NCBI RefSeq assembly: GCF_023702635.1
Contig: NZ_CP098455.1
Location: forward strand, 3,100,001 to 3,164,000
Reading direction: 5' to 3'
DNA: 64,000 nt
From: Spongiibacter taiwanensis
GTDB taxonomy: Bacteria > Pseudomonadota > Gammaproteobacteria > Pseudomonadales > Spongiibacteraceae
Under the pieces are notes generated by a model. The model was not told the origin of the DNA. It did no database searches and worked only from the letters and a program-made list of their open reading frames with translations. Positions 2,295 to 18,210 of the stretch are shown in pieces. The first letter of the stretch is position 1. Each line of letters starts with the position of its first letter. The position numbers were made by a program, and so were the translations under genes.

Positions 2295-3419
2295 ATGGCG
2301 ACTCTTGCCAGAACAACACCCTATCGCATGGCAGTGTGGGGCCCCGGTGATGTGGGCTCGGTGTGTATTCGTGAAGCGCTGCGCCGGAACGATATGGAAG
2401 TAGTGGGTGCTTACGTATACAGCGAGCACAAAGACGGTAAGGACATCGGCGAACTGGTGGGCAAGGACCCAATCGGCGTGTACGCAACCCGTGATCTGGA
2501 TGCCTTTCTGGCGATTGACTGCGATGTGGTTTTGTACACCGCCCTGGATTTTCCCGGCGGCCCTGCCGAAGAGGATTTTCTGACTCTACTGCGGGCGGGC
2601 AAAGTGGTGGTGACGTCGTTGCCCTACACCTATCTCGCCTACCGCGACCCCAAATTCAAACAGGCTTTGGAAGAGGCAGCGGCCCAGGGCGGCGGCACCT
2701 TCTATGCCAGCGGTGTGAACCCCGACTTTATCGGCCACCGCTTTGTGCTGCTGCAAACCGGCCTGTCCAGCGAGGTCGAGAGCATAAAAATAGAAGAATA
2801 TTTTGACTGCGAAGACCAAGAAAATGCCACCACCCTGGGTATTATCGGCCTGGGTGGTGACCCCAACAAAGCCATGGATGAAACCAGCCCGGCGCTGTTC
2901 TACCAACGCCAGTACTGGTTCCAGATGATCCAGCATATGGCCGATTCCATGGGGGTTGAGCTGTCTCGCATAGAAGCGGCGAGTTATTCCGAGCCCGCGC
3001 CCCGGGATATCGCTGTGGACTGTATGACCATCAAGCAAGGCACCACCGGCAGTGTGGCCTATGAGTCCATTGGTTATGTGGGGGATACCCCCTTTATTAC
3101 CATGCGGGTGGGCTGGTATATGACGCCCCTGATGAAACCGGCCCATGTGAATCGGGAAACCGAGTGGATCATCACCATCGAAGGTCGCCCTTCGTCAAAA
3201 TGTGTGCTGGATCTGGCGCCAAGTTTCAACAGCGACATTAAAACCATTGAAGGTGACCCTGCCGCGCCGGGCTATTTCTCCTTTGCCGTATGTTTGCTGC
3301 AAGGTATTCCGGCGGCGGTAGCCCACGGCCCCGGTATTCGCCAAACTGATCTACCGCCGATTCACTGGCGCAAGGATATGCGCATGCGCACCGAGAGCAA
3401 CAAGCACTGGTACGATTAA
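2295..3419 (+). CDS. DapB-like NAD(P)-binding oxidoreductase
   Basis: A 374-residue protein with an N-terminal Rossmann fold (VWGPGDVG near residue 12, then VVGAYVYSEHKDGKDIGEL), of the dihydrodipicolinate-reductase-like group that includes 2,4-diaminopentanoate dehydrogenase and many uncharacterised catabolic dehydrogenases. The C-terminal half would form the substrate and dimerisation domain. A good ribosome site (GAAGGAG, 2280-2286) precedes the ATG. It follows the TonB receptor by 17 bp. A more divergent relative of the same superfamily lies at 6923-7960. It is not lysine-pathway DapB, which is about 270 residues. The fold is well supported; the reaction is not known. Confidence 0.8.
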   Translation: MATLARTTPYRMAVWGPGDVGSVCIREALRRNDMEVVGAYVYSEHKDGKDIGELVGKDPIGVYATRDLDAFLAIDCDVVLYTALDFPGGPAEEDFLTLLRAGKVVVTSLPYTYLAYRDPKFKQALEEAAAQGGGTFYASGVNPDFIGHRFVLLQTGLSSEVESIKIEEYFDCEDQENATTLGIIGLGGDPNKAMDETSPALFYQRQYWFQMIQHMADSMGVELSRIEAASYSEPAPRDIAVDCMTIKQGTTGSVAYESIGYVGDTPFITMRVGWYMTPLMKPAHVNRETEWIITIEGRPSSKCVLDLAPSFNSDIKTIEGDPAAPGYFSFAVCLLQGIPAAVAHGPGIRQTDLPPIHWRKDMRMRTESNKHWYD

Positions 3420-11952: not shown

Positions 11953-14031
11953 TTAGAACTGATAGGTGACGGACAGACGAATGTCTCTACCTGGTTCATA
12001 GTGGCCTACTACCATGCCGTAGCCAGGTACCTCAGAATAATCTCCAACACTGGAGTGATCCCGGTAGAGTTTATCAAAGGCATTGATAATCGACAGGTTG
12101 ATGGTCAGTGCATCGGTAGGCATCCACTGGGCAAAGAGATCGACGGTGGAGTAGGAGGGCTTTTCCAGGTTGTATAGTTCGTCGACGTAGTCTTTGTCGA
12201 GGTCCTGGTACAGGGTTTTGATATTGAGCTCTTCTACGTAGGTAAGGTTGGCGCCAAATTTCAGGTTGGCCATTGGCCGGTATTCCACGCCCAGGTTCCA
12301 GGTGTCACCGCGAGAGTTACCCAGGCCGTCAAACTCGTAGCCGCTAAGGTCAACCGCGCTGTAGTTGGCTGCGTACAGGCCTGCAGCGGGTTCCAGTTCG
12401 GAGTCTACCGTGGCGAAACCCGCATAGAACTCAAAGTCGTTCCACAAGTAGGCGATATCCAGTTCCAGGCCACGACTTTTCACTGTGCCGATATTCTCGA
12501 AGCGGGCGCTGTCCACGTCGTGTTCTAGGATGGTGTCGTCAATTTCTGATTGGAATACCGCCAGGCGAGCATCCAGACTGCCCACCCGGTAGCGCAGCGA
12601 CGATTCGATGTTGGCCACTTTTTCAGGCTTCAGATTAGGGTCAATCATCGGCTCGCTGCTGCGGTCATACAGGTAGGCGTCAAGGGTGAAACCGTCGCCG
12701 ATTTCTTTGCCGCGAGAGGCTTCGGCGTAGCCCAGGCCAAAGGTCCAGGCGTCGTTTATGTCGTACAGCAAGCCGGCGTTGATGCTGACTTCGGAGCTGT
12801 CTATGGCAATGGCTTCGTCGGTGATGGGGTCACCGTAGTAGTCCGGCAGGCGGATTTCCTGCTGGTAGTCATACTTGTCGTAGCGCAAGCCGTAGCTCAG
12901 CAAGAGCTGGGGGGTCACTTGCGAGTGTGCCTGGGCATAAATGCCGAGGACGTCACCATTTTCGCCATGATCTTCTTCAGGCTGAGGAATGGCGTAGCCG
13001 CTTTCCACCTGATCGTCCCGGTATTCCACCCCGTAAGTGAAACGGTGAATGCCCAAGCGGCTGGTGTTGCGGATATCAAAGCCGTAGCTTTCGATGGTGG
13101 CCAGAAAGTCAAAGCGACCGCCCCGGAAGGCTGATTCAGTGTCGTAGGCAGTCACTTCCAGGTTGATGGCCTCATTCAGGAACAGCCCGTAGTTGGCGGT
13201 CAGGGTTTCCCGTTTGGCTTCGCTGTCGAACAGATCGTTTCTTCCGGGCACGTAAACCCAGTTGGGGCGGGCAGTGAATCTGCCATCTTCATCTCTATCT
13301 TCATAACTGATGGACAGGCTTTGATTGTCGCTGATGTTGCCGCTGAGCTTAATAAAGCCCAGGGTCTGGTCGGCGCCTGAACCGTGAATATCATTGTTAT
13401 CGCCGTCTTTAGCGACGTTGCGCTCCAGATTGTTGTAGTAACCCACCAAGCCCCAGTCGTCGGTGAGGCGACCGTACAGGCTCAGGCTGTATTGCTCGCC
13501 GTCGTTGCTGAAGTTGCTGACTTTGACCTTGCCGCCAAATTTTTCGCCAGCTGCGAGAAGGTCGTTTGCAGATTTGGTTTTAAAGCGAATGGCGCCGCCA
13601 ATGGCCCCAAAGCCTGCGGTAGCTTCACCGGCACCGGCCTGAACGTCCACTTCTTTGAGCAGGGCAGGGTCAATGGTGACGCGGCCAATGTGGTGGTACA
13701 GGGTAGAGGTCTGCGGGGCGCCGTCCACGGTGACATTAATAAAGGCATCTTCCAGGCCGCGGATGTAAATTTTTTGGGCCACACCCACTGAGCCGCCTAC
13801 CGAAATGGAAGGGTCTTTCATGAAAACATCGCCCAGGTCATTGGCCTGAAAGTTTTCCAGCTCTTCGGCGGTAATCAGCGCGTTGGTGGCTTCACCCACC
13901 ACAATCATGGTCTCCAGCTGCTTGGGGCTCTCTTTGGCCGCTGGCTCGTTGGCCAGTGCGGACAGGCTACTGGCTGCCGCGATCATTGCCGCCAGTGGCG
14001 TGGTTTTGCCTAGTATCCTCATGTGGTTCAT
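11953..14031 (-). CDS. TonB-dependent siderophore receptor
   Basis: A 692-residue outer-membrane receptor for a ferric siderophore or heme. It has an N-terminal signal peptide (MIAAASSLSALANEPAAKES), a TonB-box region with QLETMIVVGEA, and a plug domain with KIYIRGLEDAFINVTVDGA and GFGAIGGAIRF. The large barrel ends in SVTYQF with a terminal Phe. A Fur box at 14056-14070 lies 25 bp upstream of its ATG, so it should be expressed in low iron. It stands next to a PfeRS-like two-component system and the petrobactin-type locus, making the ferrated product of that locus its most likely ligand. The ligand assignment is inference from position. Confidence 0.92.
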   Translation of the reverse strand: MNHMRILGKTTPLAAMIAAASSLSALANEPAAKESPKQLETMIVVGEATNALITAEELENFQANDLGDVFMKDPSISVGGSVGVAQKIYIRGLEDAFINVTVDGAPQTSTLYHHIGRVTIDPALLKEVDVQAGAGEATAGFGAIGGAIRFKTKSANDLLAAGEKFGGKVKVSNFSNDGEQYSLSLYGRLTDDWGLVGYYNNLERNVAKDGDNNDIHGSGADQTLGFIKLSGNISDNQSLSISYEDRDEDGRFTARPNWVYVPGRNDLFDSEAKRETLTANYGLFLNEAINLEVTAYDTESAFRGGRFDFLATIESYGFDIRNTSRLGIHRFTYGVEYRDDQVESGYAIPQPEEDHGENGDVLGIYAQAHSQVTPQLLLSYGLRYDKYDYQQEIRLPDYYGDPITDEAIAIDSSEVSINAGLLYDINDAWTFGLGYAEASRGKEIGDGFTLDAYLYDRSSEPMIDPNLKPEKVANIESSLRYRVGSLDARLAVFQSEIDDTILEHDVDSARFENIGTVKSRGLELDIAYLWNDFEFYAGFATVDSELEPAAGLYAANYSAVDLSGYEFDGLGNSRGDTWNLGVEYRPMANLKFGANLTYVEELNIKTLYQDLDKDYVDELYNLEKPSYSTVDLFAQWMPTDALTINLSIINAFDKLYRDHSSVGDYSEVPGYGMVVGHYEPGRDIRLSVTYQF

Positions 14032-14055
14032 ACCCTTTTCGTTAGATAAAATAAA

Positions 14056-14070
14056 TGAGAATTATACTCA
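14056..14070 (-). promoter_or_regulatory. Fur box upstream of the siderophore receptor
   Basis: TGAGAATTATACTCA matches the 7-1-7 Fur consensus TGATAATnATTATCA in 12 of 14 arm positions and is itself a 7-1-7 palindrome (TGAGAAT-T-ATACTCA) broken at only one pair; flanking bases extend it as AAA...TTT. It is 25 bp upstream of the receptor ATG, where Fur would block the promoter. Confidence 0.8.
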
Positions 14071-14141
14071 TTTGTGTTTGGGTAAAAAGGGACTTTGCAA
14101 TTGTTACATTTGGCGGGAGGGTGGGAGCGGAGTAGTTGTCG

Positions 14142-15485
14142 TTACTGATGAGGCAAGGTCACCGTCATTTGTAGTCCGCCCCGGGTCAGGTTGGTGGCGA
14201 CCAGACTGCCGCCGATGGCTTCCACCTGCCGGCGCGCCAGTGCCAGTCCTAGACCGAAGCCGCTGGTGTCGGCGTGGCGGGAGGCGTCGACCCGATAAAA
14301 GGGCTGAAAAATCGTATCCAGACTTTGCTCGGGTACTCCCGGCCCTCGATCGCTGATGCTAATGGTGTAGTGGGTGTCGCTTGCAGACAGGGCAACGGTG
14401 ACGGTGTCTCCCGCCGGGGTATAGCGCAGGGCGTTGCGGACGATGTTTTCCAGTGCCTGACCCAGGGCGCGGTGGTTGCTGTTGTCGATGGGGGCCTGAT
14501 CTGGCAATTGCATAAGGAGCTGGCGATCTGGAAATTCAAAACGGGCATCCTCTGCCAGCACGTCCAGCAAATCGACCAGATCCAGCGATTCTTGCTTCAG
14601 GGTGGGCCGTTCATTTTCCAGCCACGCCAGCGTGAGGGTGTCTACCACCAGCCGGCGGATATGTTGCGACTCCCGACTGATGCGAGCGATGTTGTCGGCA
14701 TTGTCGCCATCGGGCTGGAGTCGTTCGATGGCCATGTCCAGCCGGGTCAGCGGCGTGCGCAATTCGTGGGACAGGTCGGCGATAAGCTGGCGCTGACTGA
14801 TAATTAGCTCGCCGATGCGGGCGGCCATTTGGTCAAAGGTGTTGGCCAGTTCCGACATCTCATCACTGCGGTTGCCGAGCTTTTCCCGCACGCGCACGTT
14901 AAAGCGGCCCTCGCTGAAATGGCGGGTGGCCTGCTCCAGCTGACGCAGAGGCGACATGATGTGCCGGTAAAGCACGATGGAAAGCAGGGTTAGCAATATC
15001 ATGGGCAGAAGGACTTGCAGCGCGGCGCTGGCGTAGCCCCGGTATAGCCCGGGCCGCATTCGCTCGGGCAGAACGATGAGAAAGTGAAGGTGGCGATCGT
15101 GCTTGAAGGTGACCTCCATAATGGGGTTGTATTCGAAATGGAGGTGGATTTTCCAGTCGACGCTGCGGCCAAACCAGTACCCTTCATAAAACCGGTCGTT
15201 CAACTCGCTGCCGGCAACGCCCACCACTGCTGATTGAATCATCGCCGCCCAGGTGTCTTCTTCTGCCTTGAGCCTGTCCAGCCAGGTTTTCAGCGCCGCT
15301 TCGTCGCCCTTGAGATACAGTTGTTCGGCCTCGCGCCCCCACTGGGTAAGCTGATGCCGATCCTCATCAGCCAGAAAGCTCATGCCGTCTTCGGCGCGGG
15401 AGTTCAGGATGCTAATGGCGTAAAACAGCGCGACGGTGCCGGTGGCGATAATCAGGCACAGCTTCCACAGCAGCCGCCGGTTCAT
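14142..15485 (-). CDS. Sensor histidine kinase, PfeS/CpxA-like
   Basis: A 447-residue inner-membrane kinase. Order: TM1 (residues 5-27), periplasmic sensor (about 28-153), TM2 (155-173), HAMP linker (about 174-228), HisKA dimerisation domain with the phospho-accepting His240 in DLSHELRTPLTRLD, and an ATPase domain with N box (ENIVRNALRYTP), DRGPGVP and GFGLGLALARR. The small periplasmic domain and the position beside an iron receptor recall PfeS of Pseudomonas, which responds to ferric enterobactin in the periplasm. Its ATG lies in the last copy of a 17-bp tandem repeat that separates it from the regulator gene. It is read with the regulator and the PepSY genes. Confidence 0.9.
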   Translation of the reverse strand: MNRRLLWKLCLIIATGTVALFYAISILNSRAEDGMSFLADEDRHQLTQWGREAEQLYLKGDEAALKTWLDRLKAEEDTWAAMIQSAVVGVAGSELNDRFYEGYWFGRSVDWKIHLHFEYNPIMEVTFKHDRHLHFLIVLPERMRPGLYRGYASAALQVLLPMILLTLLSIVLYRHIMSPLRQLEQATRHFSEGRFNVRVREKLGNRSDEMSELANTFDQMAARIGELIISQRQLIADLSHELRTPLTRLDMAIERLQPDGDNADNIARISRESQHIRRLVVDTLTLAWLENERPTLKQESLDLVDLLDVLAEDARFEFPDRQLLMQLPDQAPIDNSNHRALGQALENIVRNALRYTPAGDTVTVALSASDTHYTISISDRGPGVPEQSLDTIFQPFYRVDASRHADTSGFGLGLALARRQVEAIGGSLVATNLTRGGLQMTVTLPHQ

Positions 15486-15577
15486 GACAGCACCCGCTTC
15501 ATGACAGCACTCGCTTCACGACAACACCCGCTTCATGACAACCCCTGCTTCATGACAACCCCCACTTCATGACAACA
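15481..15577 (-). repeat. 17-bp tandem repeat forming a chain of overlapping mini-ORFs
   Basis: Five full copies (15481-15497, 15498-15514, 15515-15531, 15532-15548, 15549-15565) and a 12-bp partial copy of a 17-bp unit, TTCATGACAGCACCCGC on the + strand. On the coding (minus) strand the regulator stop TGA overlaps an ATG (ATGA). That ATG opens a 6-codon ORF whose TGA overlaps the next start, and this repeats five times (starts at 15570, 15553, 15536, 15519 [GTG], 15502) until the last stop overlaps the kinase ATG at 15485. The encoded peptides are MKWGLS, MKQGLS, MKRVLS, (V/M)KRVLS and MKRVLS. A 21-nt mini-ORF minus a 4-nt overlap is exactly 17 nt, so the repeat length preserves the chain. 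Confidence 0.9.
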
Positions 15578-16265
15578 GGTAGCCTTTGCCATGCACGGTT
15601 TCCAGGCGTTCTCCGCGCCAGCCTGCTTCGGTCAGCTTTCGCCTGACTCTGCTCAGGTGCATATCCAGGCTGCGGTCATACGCACTGAAGGTGCGGTTGA
15701 GTACGGTCTGGTAGAGGTAGGCCTTACTGAGCACTTCGCCGCGCTGGGCCAATAAGGTCCACAAAAGTTTGAACTGAATGGGAGTCAATTCCAGTTCGAT
15801 GTTGTTAATGGCGACCCGTTGCCGCTGCTTGTCCAGTTGCAGGTTGTCCAGGCCTAACAGGCGCGGTTCGCTGAAGCTGGGGCTGGGCTGACAGCGGCGA
15901 AGCAGGGCTTCGATGCGCAACAGCAGCTCGGTGGTACTGAACGGTTTGGCCAGGTAGTCGTCGGCGCCTTCGGTAAAGCCGCGAATACGCTCCTCTTCTG
16001 CGCCCCGTGCGGTGAGCATAATCACCGGGGTGTTGCAGGTTTTGCGCAGAATGTTCAACACGGAGTAGCCATCTCTTTTGGGAAGCATGACATCCAGCAG
16101 TATCAACTGATGCTGGGCTCGAATGGCTTCTGACAGGCCGCTTTCGCCGTCGTAGCACTGGCTGACTTCATAGGTGTGCTCGCGCAGTCGATCGCCCAGT
16201 TGTTCGCTAAGGCTAACGTCGTCCTCAATAATAAGGATATGAGTATTGGCTTTGCTGGTGGGCAC
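15567..16265 (-). CDS. OmpR-family response regulator, PfeR-like
   Basis: A 232-residue two-component regulator. The receiver domain has the acidic pocket IIEDD (residues 12-16), phospho-acceptor Asp58 in LLDVMLPKRDGY and Lys107 in LAKPFS; the C-terminal winged helix has LTPIQFKLLWTLLAQRGEVLSKAYL and ends VHGKGYLLS. The frame stays open far upstream, but that part overlaps the DUF3325 gene. I choose GTG at 16265, which has CAGGAG 9 bp upstream and starts 2 bp after the DUF3325 stop, giving normal length. It pairs with the kinase at 14142-15485. Targets are probably the nearby receptor and siderophore genes, giving control by siderophore presence on top of Fur. Confidence 0.88.
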   Translation of the reverse strand: MPTSKANTHILIIEDDVSLSEQLGDRLREHTYEVSQCYDGESGLSEAIRAQHQLILLDVMLPKRDGYSVLNILRKTCNTPVIMLTARGAEEERIRGFTEGADDYLAKPFSTTELLLRIEALLRRCQPSPSFSEPRLLGLDNLQLDKQRQRVAINNIELELTPIQFKLLWTLLAQRGEVLSKAYLYQTVLNRTFSAYDRSLDMHLSRVRRKLTEAGWRGERLETVHGKGYLLS

Positions 16266-16267
16266 CG

Positions 16268-16600
16268 CTAAAAGCTCCTGTACACAAGATCGGCCATCCA
16301 GGCCACGAACGGCAATCCCATCAAGCACGGCATCACCCGTGGCAAGTGGTTGATGGTTAGGGTGATGCCGGTGGTGATCACCGGTAGCAGGGCCAGAATC
16401 CACACCGTGCCCAGCGTGGCGCCAGCGCGTTCGATGGCGATCCACAGCGCCAGGCCCAGAGCCGTCCAGCCCAGTAACAACAATAAGACTCGCCTGCTAG
16501 TGGGAACGAGAACCCAGGGCAGAACCCGTTTTGCGTGTCGGGACTGAGCGCAGCACAGCGCGCTCAAACCGCTGGTGAGCAGCGCGATAATCAGCGCCAC
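16268..16600 (-). CDS. DUF3325-like small membrane protein
   Basis: A 110-residue hydrophobic protein with about three membrane segments (residues 1-16, around 37-55 and 66-83). Size, hydropathy and position directly after a PepSY membrane protein fit the DUF3325 family, which accompanies siderophore reductive-release genes in Pseudomonas and relatives. It starts with GTG at 16600 and overlaps the upstream PepSY gene by 10 bp, indicating translational coupling. The molecular role is unknown; a subunit or helper of the PepSY protein is likely. Confidence 0.7.
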   Translation of the reverse strand: MALIIALLTSGLSALCCAQSRHAKRVLPWVLVPTSRRVLLLLLGWTALGLALWIAIERAGATLGTVWILALLPVITTGITLTINHLPRVMPCLMGLPFVAWMADLVYRSF

Positions 16601-18210
16601 GAGTTGTTCCCCTGGGGTGTGGCGGCGGTGTGTTTACGTTGACCAAATAGCTTGGCTCGGCGTTGTCCCGCGGCGGATGTGCGCAGGTGTTTGCCGGTGA
16701 AGGCGGCGCCCATTGCAACCGCAAGAAAAAAGAGGTCGGTGCCGACAAAGGTCCAGTCCCCTGCTGCAACACTGGATACCAGGCCGCGGTCGGTAGTCAG
16801 GGCGTTGATCAGCGGCAGCAGGCCATAGAGGGTCGCGGCGATAAAACACTGCTCCTGCCAAACCCGTTGGGCGGGGCGCACGAACCCGTGCAGGGTCAGG
16901 GCGGCCCAGGCGGCAAATAAGCAGTTAACTTCCAGCTCTGCGCGGCCTGCCAGATGGGTGGGAAGCAGGCGATTGGCCAGAAAATAACACGCAATGGCGG
17001 CAGGCAGGCCCATCAACGTGCCCGCATTCATGCCTTTTACCAGGCGAAGGCCCCGGGTTGGCGGCAGGTTTCGCTGGCGCTTTTGTTCCCACAGGATGCA
17101 GCCGGTGGCGATGATGCCGGCCAAAATCAATCCCGACAAGGCGTAGAGCCAGCGCAGGGGGAGTGAGGCAAACAGTCCCTCGTGCAGGCCTGTCAGCCAG
17201 TGGTAGGCGTTCAGGCCGGTGCGACTGGAGGTGTTTGCCGGTGGTATCCAGGCTCCCGTCATGCCGTTGTAGATCAGGGGGCTGTCGGCCTTGATGTCCC
17301 GTCCCTCAACGGGCGCAATGGTGATGCGTGCCTGAGCATCGCCCCGGTTGTCGATGCTGATATAGCGAATCTGATTGGCCCCCCAGTGGGCCTGGGCGTG
17401 GGCCAGCGGACGGTCGAGCGGAGTGGGTTGCGCAGATTGCCCGCTGGGGTGGGTGTGGGGCATTTCGTTAAATACATCGTGATACAGGCGTTCGCTGGCC
17501 GCGGCATCGCTACCGTAAAACGCGGGGATCAACGTAGGCAGGTAGGTAAAGGCAAAAAATGCCAGGGCGCTGTAGCTGATCATTAATTGAAAAGGCAGCG
17601 TGGTGACGCTGAGCAGGTTGTGAACATCCAGCCAGCTGCGCAGTTTCTTGCCGGGCCTGAAGGTGAAAAAGTCAGCGAAAATACGCCGATGGATGATTAC
17701 CCCACTGAGGGTGGCCAGGCACATCACCGCAGCGCAGATGCCAACCAACCAGTAGGCCAGGGTTTCGGGAAGGTAGTGCAGGCGCCAGTGCATCCGGTAG
17801 AGGGTCTGACTGCCAGCGGTGTCTCTAACCGGTAGCACTTCGCCGCTATTGGGGTCCAGCCAGGCGGTTTTCATACCCTGCTCTGGATGCTCCCAGGAAA
17901 TGCTGAGAAAGGGGTAGCGGGCCAGGGGGAAATCGATGCTCCAGTAGGTCGCTGCGCCAGCGTGCTGTTCAAGTTGCATGGTTGCCATATTGAGCCATGC
18001 CGCGGTGGCGCTGTCTTTTGGCCCCCCACCAGCGGGGGGCGCGGATTCAGCTGTGTGGTAGGTAGGGGCTTCCGGGCGCATCCAGTGGTCCAGTTCAGCA
18101 TCGAAGTAACCTGCCGTGCCGGTGAGCACAATAAAGTACATAAGCCAGCTCAACAGCAATCCCAGCCAGCTGTGAACCGGAGCGAGTCGTTGTCGAATGC
18201 GCTGACTCAT
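16591..18210 (-). CDS. PepSY-associated membrane protein (iron/siderophore reductase type)
   Basis: A 539-residue inner-membrane protein. It begins with a helix typical of PepSY_TM proteins (RLAPVHSWLGLLLSWLMYFIVLTGTAGYF, His near residue 13), followed by a periplasmic domain, further helices (around 135-155 and 200-220), a second periplasmic domain and a C-terminal helical bundle. Proteins of this type, such as FoxB and PiuB, take part in ferri-siderophore reduction or iron release at the inner membrane. It overlaps DUF3649 by 4 bp (ATGA) and DUF3325 by 10 bp. The block begins under a Fur box at 18541-18555. Confidence 0.85.
   Translation of the reverse strand: MSQRIRQRLAPVHSWLGLLLSWLMYFIVLTGTAGYFDAELDHWMRPEAPTYHTAESAPPAGGGPKDSATAAWLNMATMQLEQHAGAATYWSIDFPLARYPFLSISWEHPEQGMKTAWLDPNSGEVLPVRDTAGSQTLYRMHWRLHYLPETLAYWLVGICAAVMCLATLSGVIIHRRIFADFFTFRPGKKLRSWLDVHNLLSVTTLPFQLMISYSALAFFAFTYLPTLIPAFYGSDAAASERLYHDVFNEMPHTHPSGQSAQPTPLDRPLAHAQAHWGANQIRYISIDNRGDAQARITIAPVEGRDIKADSPLIYNGMTGAWIPPANTSSRTGLNAYHWLTGLHEGLFASLPLRWLYALSGLILAGIIATGCILWEQKRQRNLPPTRGLRLVKGMNAGTLMGLPAAIACYFLANRLLPTHLAGRAELEVNCLFAAWAALTLHGFVRPAQRVWQEQCFIAATLYGLLPLINALTTDRGLVSSVAAGDWTFVGTDLFFLAVAMGAAFTGKHLRTSAAGQRRAKLFGQRKHTAATPQGNNSWR

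Follow-up and report, generated by a model that had tools for sequence, protein, structure and literature searches.

Translational coupling between neighbouring genes is strongest when stop and start are -4 to +3 nt apart, and most studies find little of it beyond 30–40 nt (PMC12548453). In the case of upstream ORFs (uORFs) and leader minicistrons, the translation of a short ORF feeds a downstream start (PMC12548453). The repeats called MIRUs carry an ORF that is coupled to its neighbour by a -4 nt overlap and occur in tandem copies; three such copies of 77 bp are found at the senX3-regX3 junction of M. tuberculosis H37Rv, and the copies differ between strains (PMC12548453, PMC4213456). No description of a ladder of 17-nt units was found in the literature searched, in which few subscription journals were covered. 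Here we describe such an array at the junction of a response regulator gene with its kinase gene and compare it with similar arrays at other operon junctions.

The array lies in a window of 64,000 nt, the whole stretch of DNA that was analysed, from Spongiibacter taiwanensis, and its features are on the minus strand. A response regulator gene that is OmpR/CpxR-like and starts with GTG (15567..16265; Pfam Response_reg and Trans_reg_C) is followed by the gene of a sensor histidine kinase (14142..15485, ATG at 15485; HK_sensor, HAMP, HisKA and HATPase_c), both taken from the ORF list and assigned through Pfam. The regulator ends in ...GYLLS, and its TGA (15569-15567) overlaps the start of the first of five 21-nt ORFs that fill the space between the regulator stop and the kinase ATG with a 4-nt overlap at each step: mini-ORF 1 (15550..15570, ATG, MKWGLS), mini-ORF 2 (15533..15553, ATG, MKQGLS), mini-ORF 3 (15516..15536, ATG, MKRVLS), mini-ORF 4 (15499..15519, GTG, (V)KRVLS) and mini-ORF 5 (15482..15502, ATG, MKRVLS), the TGA of the last overlapping the kinase ATG. 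Each of these stops is a TGA inside an RTGA, the RTG of which is the start codon of the following ORF, and RTGA is present at all six steps. Thus the chain of five six-codon ORFs with 4-nt overlaps, proposed in the first-pass annotation, is borne out by the minus-strand sequence and by TRF, which reports a 17-bp unit in 5.9 copies at 15477-15577 with 86% matches. Together with a pattern search of the genome itself, this gives six in-phase 17-mer copies centred on the stop/start overlap (15477..15578, consensus STGYTGTCRTGAASYRR), the copy nearest the regulator being CTGTTGTCATGAAGTGG and the one nearest the kinase GTGCTGTCATGAACCGG. Sets of three RTGA in a 17-nt register number five in the window, where shuffles predict 0.04. 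The genome is a single contig of 3.71 Mb in which the array occupies one locus; elsewhere in it the 17-mer was not found above the reversed-pattern control, scattered one-mismatch matches being at the control level. The copies differ at several positions by substitution, and these few substitutions all preserve the ladder, for which a rough hand estimate gives a chance of about one in nine without selection.

A receiver and winged-helix regulator beside a HAMP/HisKA/HATPase kinase places the pair, by Pfam, among OmpR-family two-component systems. The best NCBIfam match of the regulator is CpxR, at 176 bits with a cut-off of 341, and the kinase scores 203 against 486 and 235 against 800 bits with the CpxA models, both below the curated cut-off; an assignment as CpxR/CpxA equivalogs was rejected, since all NCBIfam scores fall below the curated cut-offs. 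Within 11953-18210, two ORFs of 539 and 110 codons, neither with an NCBIfam match, come ahead of the two-component genes, and a TonB-dependent receptor that is nearest to heme receptors (below cut-off) comes after them. No ortholog of the kinase was found in 17 other genomes of the genus or in three other genomes of the family, and no relative in the viral contigs searched. As 17 other species of the genus lack the kinase, the regulator/kinase pair may have been acquired in this species or lost elsewhere.

An order-wide search recovered kinase orthologs within the order of S. taiwanensis. Twenty-one orthologous regulator/kinase pairs with a kinase identity of at least 43% were compared (L032-L052), and in 19 of them a single ATGA or GTGA overlap lies at the same site, the exceptions being L038 and L039. 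The window therefore carries five extra 17-mer copies, and its array is best read, from this comparison of sequences, as one copy of an ancestral RTGA overlap to which five in-phase copies were added. An expansion of an ancestral ATGA overlap had been suggested at first pass, and the orthologous junctions agree with it. The junction in L038 (G026) is also expanded; it holds two mini-ORFs that start with TTG, and the kinase is preceded by a GAGGAG SD. Its two-mini-ORF chain was set aside as a ladder, as random sequence of equal length gives such a chain in about 10% of cases.

Arrays of this kind recur at other operon junctions. When one genome per species was scanned for runs of five RTGA spaced 17 nt apart, at least 119 loci came up; among the matches listed, 19 arrays connect a pair of open frames that are each 90 codons or longer. 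Both partners were confirmed by Pfam for panB/panC in Mesorhizobium muleiense, for a deaminase/PNP pair in M. kowhaii, in which the deaminase is a cytidine deaminase, and for hydantoinase A/B, two ABC2 permeases and ispDF/pgpA; they were confirmed also for the L122 pair, yet the units of this array are only 49% alike. Eleven identical 17-nt GTGA units lie between a glycerophosphotransferase-like ORF and a 338-codon ORF in Streptacidiphilus sp. 4-A2 (L103, about 2866-3056), and twelve identical 17-nt GTGA units in Geomonas oryzae S43 (L070, 5306-5513) are not between two long ORFs. Among the arrays of the window's order, one besides the window's own lies at a junction of two genes confirmed by Pfam, a HAD hydrolase and an S4-domain protein, with seven mini-ORFs. 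Order-wide counts of 17-nt RTGA arrays (12 of 391 genomes) hardly exceed those of the reversed control (9 genomes), so enrichment is claimed for Mesorhizobium only. In viral contigs, where periods of 13, 14, 16, 17, 19 and 20 nt were compared, ladder-compatible periods were at junctions in 9 of 256 cases and other periods in 4 of 228, a difference that is not significant, with too few junction arrays to separate the periods.

How such arrays change can be seen in 146 genomes of one genus, taken as Mesorhizobium because two of its members, G787 and G775, agree at 100% over the query with the named loci L064 and L092. At panB/panC, one overlap is present in most of the genomes read, and 1, 2, 3 or 4 extra 17-nt units are present in a group of species, with all chains closed. 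At deaminase/PNP, which was read in 130 genomes, there are 0 units in 39, 1 in 44, 2 in 25, 3 in 16 and 4-7 in the rest, and at least 43 changes of unit number are required on the flank tree, compared with about 70 with shuffled labels. These series, of 0-4 and 0-7 units, fit the expectation, raised at first pass, that copy number would change between relatives as slippage predicts. Some deaminase/PNP units are 16, 18 or 20 nt long and some cores are lost, and the chain reaches, or reads in frame into, the downstream start in 128 of the 130 genomes, arriving at the ATG at -4 (116 genomes), +1 (7), -1 (2) or +6 (1), or by in-frame read-in (2); the chain is absent from the two genomes that have ATAG. 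A random deletion would break the chain in about 42% of cases, a substitution in about 4% and an insertion in about 1%. Since random substitutions and insertions rarely break it, chain survival alone is weak to modest evidence that the chain is kept. The stronger part of the evidence is an approximately five-fold contrast in divergence within the units: among internal deaminase/PNP units, off-consensus sites make up 10 of 280 in the ATGA core (3.6%) and 167 of 910 in the spacer (18.4%). These are related sequences, and the Fisher value of 2e-11 for this contrast ignores their shared descent. By parsimony, the last unit needs 1.0 steps per column in the core and 4.1 in the spacer. Among spacer positions, a GG pair located 5 nt ahead of the next ATG is alone in being conserved as well as the core. 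Unit number turns over readily, presumably by slippage, while the chain stays. In one member of the deaminase/PNP series (L894), four ATGA units of 15 nt are present, a period of 0 mod 3 that leads to an N-terminal extension and not to a ladder.

The first-pass annotation held that a 17-nt period is precisely what such a chain needs; the period is sufficient but not required, as any period of 2 mod 3 closes the chain. It follows that 17 nt is favoured for a reason other than closure. Four RTGA at 17 nt were found in 35 Mesorhizobium genomes, with about 52 matches against about 16 in a reversed-letter control (about three-fold), while four-RTGA arrays were found in 7 genomes at 20 nt and in 8 at 19 nt. 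About two thirds of the 30 17-nt loci that were read are junctions, belonging to about nine gene-pair families that include a second response regulator/kinase pair (L935, L944), rpiR/pfkB, rlu/rsmD, surE/pcm and permease pairs. None of the 19-nt arrays read in the genus is at a junction, and a 20-nt-period ATGA array between two ORFs (L954) is the only junction ladder of that period found there. L935 and L944 carry an independent 17-nt ladder with three mini-ORFs that leads from a response regulator to a histidine kinase, in the same gene order as in the window, and their units have no SD-like run. Most units at junctions do have one, 3-8 nt before the next start, and the units of other junctions have in common only RTGA and, mostly, this run. 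It is possible that 17 nt is about the shortest unit that accommodates RTGA, an SD-like run and a spacer, and that this is the reason for the period.

Taken together, these observations make it probable, as far as sequence comparison can tell, that the array arose by tandem expansion in situ and that the resulting ladder relays termination-reinitiation from the regulator to the kinase, which the earlier annotation had also seen in it and which is supported as the likely mode. In this lineage, tandem duplication would have turned a 17-bp stretch with the ancestral ATGA overlap at its centre into six copies. As 17 is 2 mod 3 and no in-frame stop lies within the unit, each extra copy forms a six-codon ORF that ends in the overlapping start of the next copy. 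Having terminated on the regulator, a ribosome or 30S subunit could then reinitiate at -4 nt six times and so come to the kinase ATG; if there were no ladder, some 80 nt would separate the regulator stop from the kinase start, a distance over which coupling would normally be weak or absent. Each unit of the array also brings an SD-like G-run a few nucleotides before the next start and could thus serve as a nearly self-contained reinitiation cassette, and copy number would shift, presumably by slippage, with the stop/start chain retained. We infer that ribosomes use the ladder at the window junction and that coupling is what is kept, and the mini-ORFs probably have no product of their own. More tentative is a general, hitherto undescribed class of evolvable relays: in many bacteria, 17-nt cassettes of RTGA, SD-like run and spacer would multiply on the spot where operon genes are coupled, with a period set by ribosome geometry, a fast copy turnover and a downstream stoichiometry that follows copy number. 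This wider picture is possible, but less likely than not.

The array could instead be a neutral slippage repeat that expanded by chance, with mini-ORFs that are incidental and a kinase that is initiated de novo from the SD-like G-run of the last unit. The kinase might initiate alone in this way, its SD-like energy of -7.6 kcal/mol being at the strong end of the range in orthologues (-2.9 to -8.3); closure needs only a 2 mod 3 period, as one in three duplications would have, and unit number is unstable. Such a repeat does not predict the five-fold lower divergence of the ATGA core than of the spacer within the same units, nor does it predict that 17-nt arrays in Mesorhizobium gather where genes meet, and we regard it as rather unlikely. 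It is less likely still that the array is the attenuator or rheostat proposed at first pass, in which a fixed fraction of ribosomes is lost per reinitiation, so that the kinase:regulator ratio depends on unit number and can be adjusted by slippage. The wide variation of copy number between related species would suit this idea, and so would the fact that a cell usually requires less of a kinase than of its regulator. Against it, 0-4 units are tolerated by close relatives before panC, a pantothenate enzyme, which makes a heavy loss per step unlikely there, and most units carry an SD-like G-run and may be entry points, in which case more units could raise or lower output.

Two further accounts have little to recommend them. 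The unit holds a TCATGA palindrome and a CTGTCAT motif, the latter resembling PhoB-type half-sites, and the junction transcript folds slightly better than shuffles (z -1.96), so the array might be a DNA or RNA element of iterated binding sites at 17-bp spacing. We consider this very improbable, as the units at other junctions are without these motifs, RTGA and mostly the SD-like run being what is common to them, and 17 bp differs from the 11-bp spacing of PhoB repeats. Tandem repeats are prone to assembly error, but an artefact of that kind is scarcely credible here, because the copies carry differing substitutions, the genome is a single contig, and independent ladders of the same design are present in many genomes.

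If the relay is real, the ladder would preserve termination-reinitiation during a tandem extension that would otherwise break coupling across the gap, and such ladders would show how an operon junction can lengthen without losing its stop/start chain. The 0 to 7 steps at one junction offer a natural series for the fraction of ribosomes that reinitiate at an ATGA overlap, and the same series bears on whether one ribosome reinitiates repeatedly. Slippage could, as a possible route, tune the balance of two operon products, including a regulator and its kinase. Ladders would also account for a class of short intergenic tandem repeats overlooked by annotation.

At each step, the ladder uses the -4 nt ATGA overlap that is standard among gene pairs with termination-reinitiation (ATGA, TGATG) and is seen at the orthologous junctions (PMC6728339); known pairs have one step between two genes, but the window has six, through mini-ORFs. 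With uORFs and leader minicistrons the mini-ORFs share the short feeding ORF; they differ in being chained in tandem from one operon gene to the next and, in the Mesorhizobium series, in their variable number. Tandem arrangement and unstable copy number are also traits of intergenic VNTR minisatellites, the instability being seen at two Mesorhizobium junctions; unlike such minisatellites, the Mesorhizobium junction keeps frame, overlap and spacing across copies and species. MIRUs at senX3-regX3 resemble the array most in outline, as a short tandem repeat between two-component genes with an ORF that overlaps by -4 nt, and the 77-bp unit is 2 mod 3, as is the 17-nt unit. MIRU units are some 46-101 bp in size. 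They are thus longer, and they lie in many genomic places, apparently mobile and inserted from elsewhere, while the window unit is of 17 bp, confined to a single locus and arisen in place. The window ORFs overlap the stop and start of their neighbours by 4 nt, as in a MIRU, but dispersed genomic copies are absent, and classification as a MIRU was rejected on unit length and dispersal. The closest precedent is nonetheless the ATGA-coupled MIRU repeats that stand in tandem at senX3-regX3.
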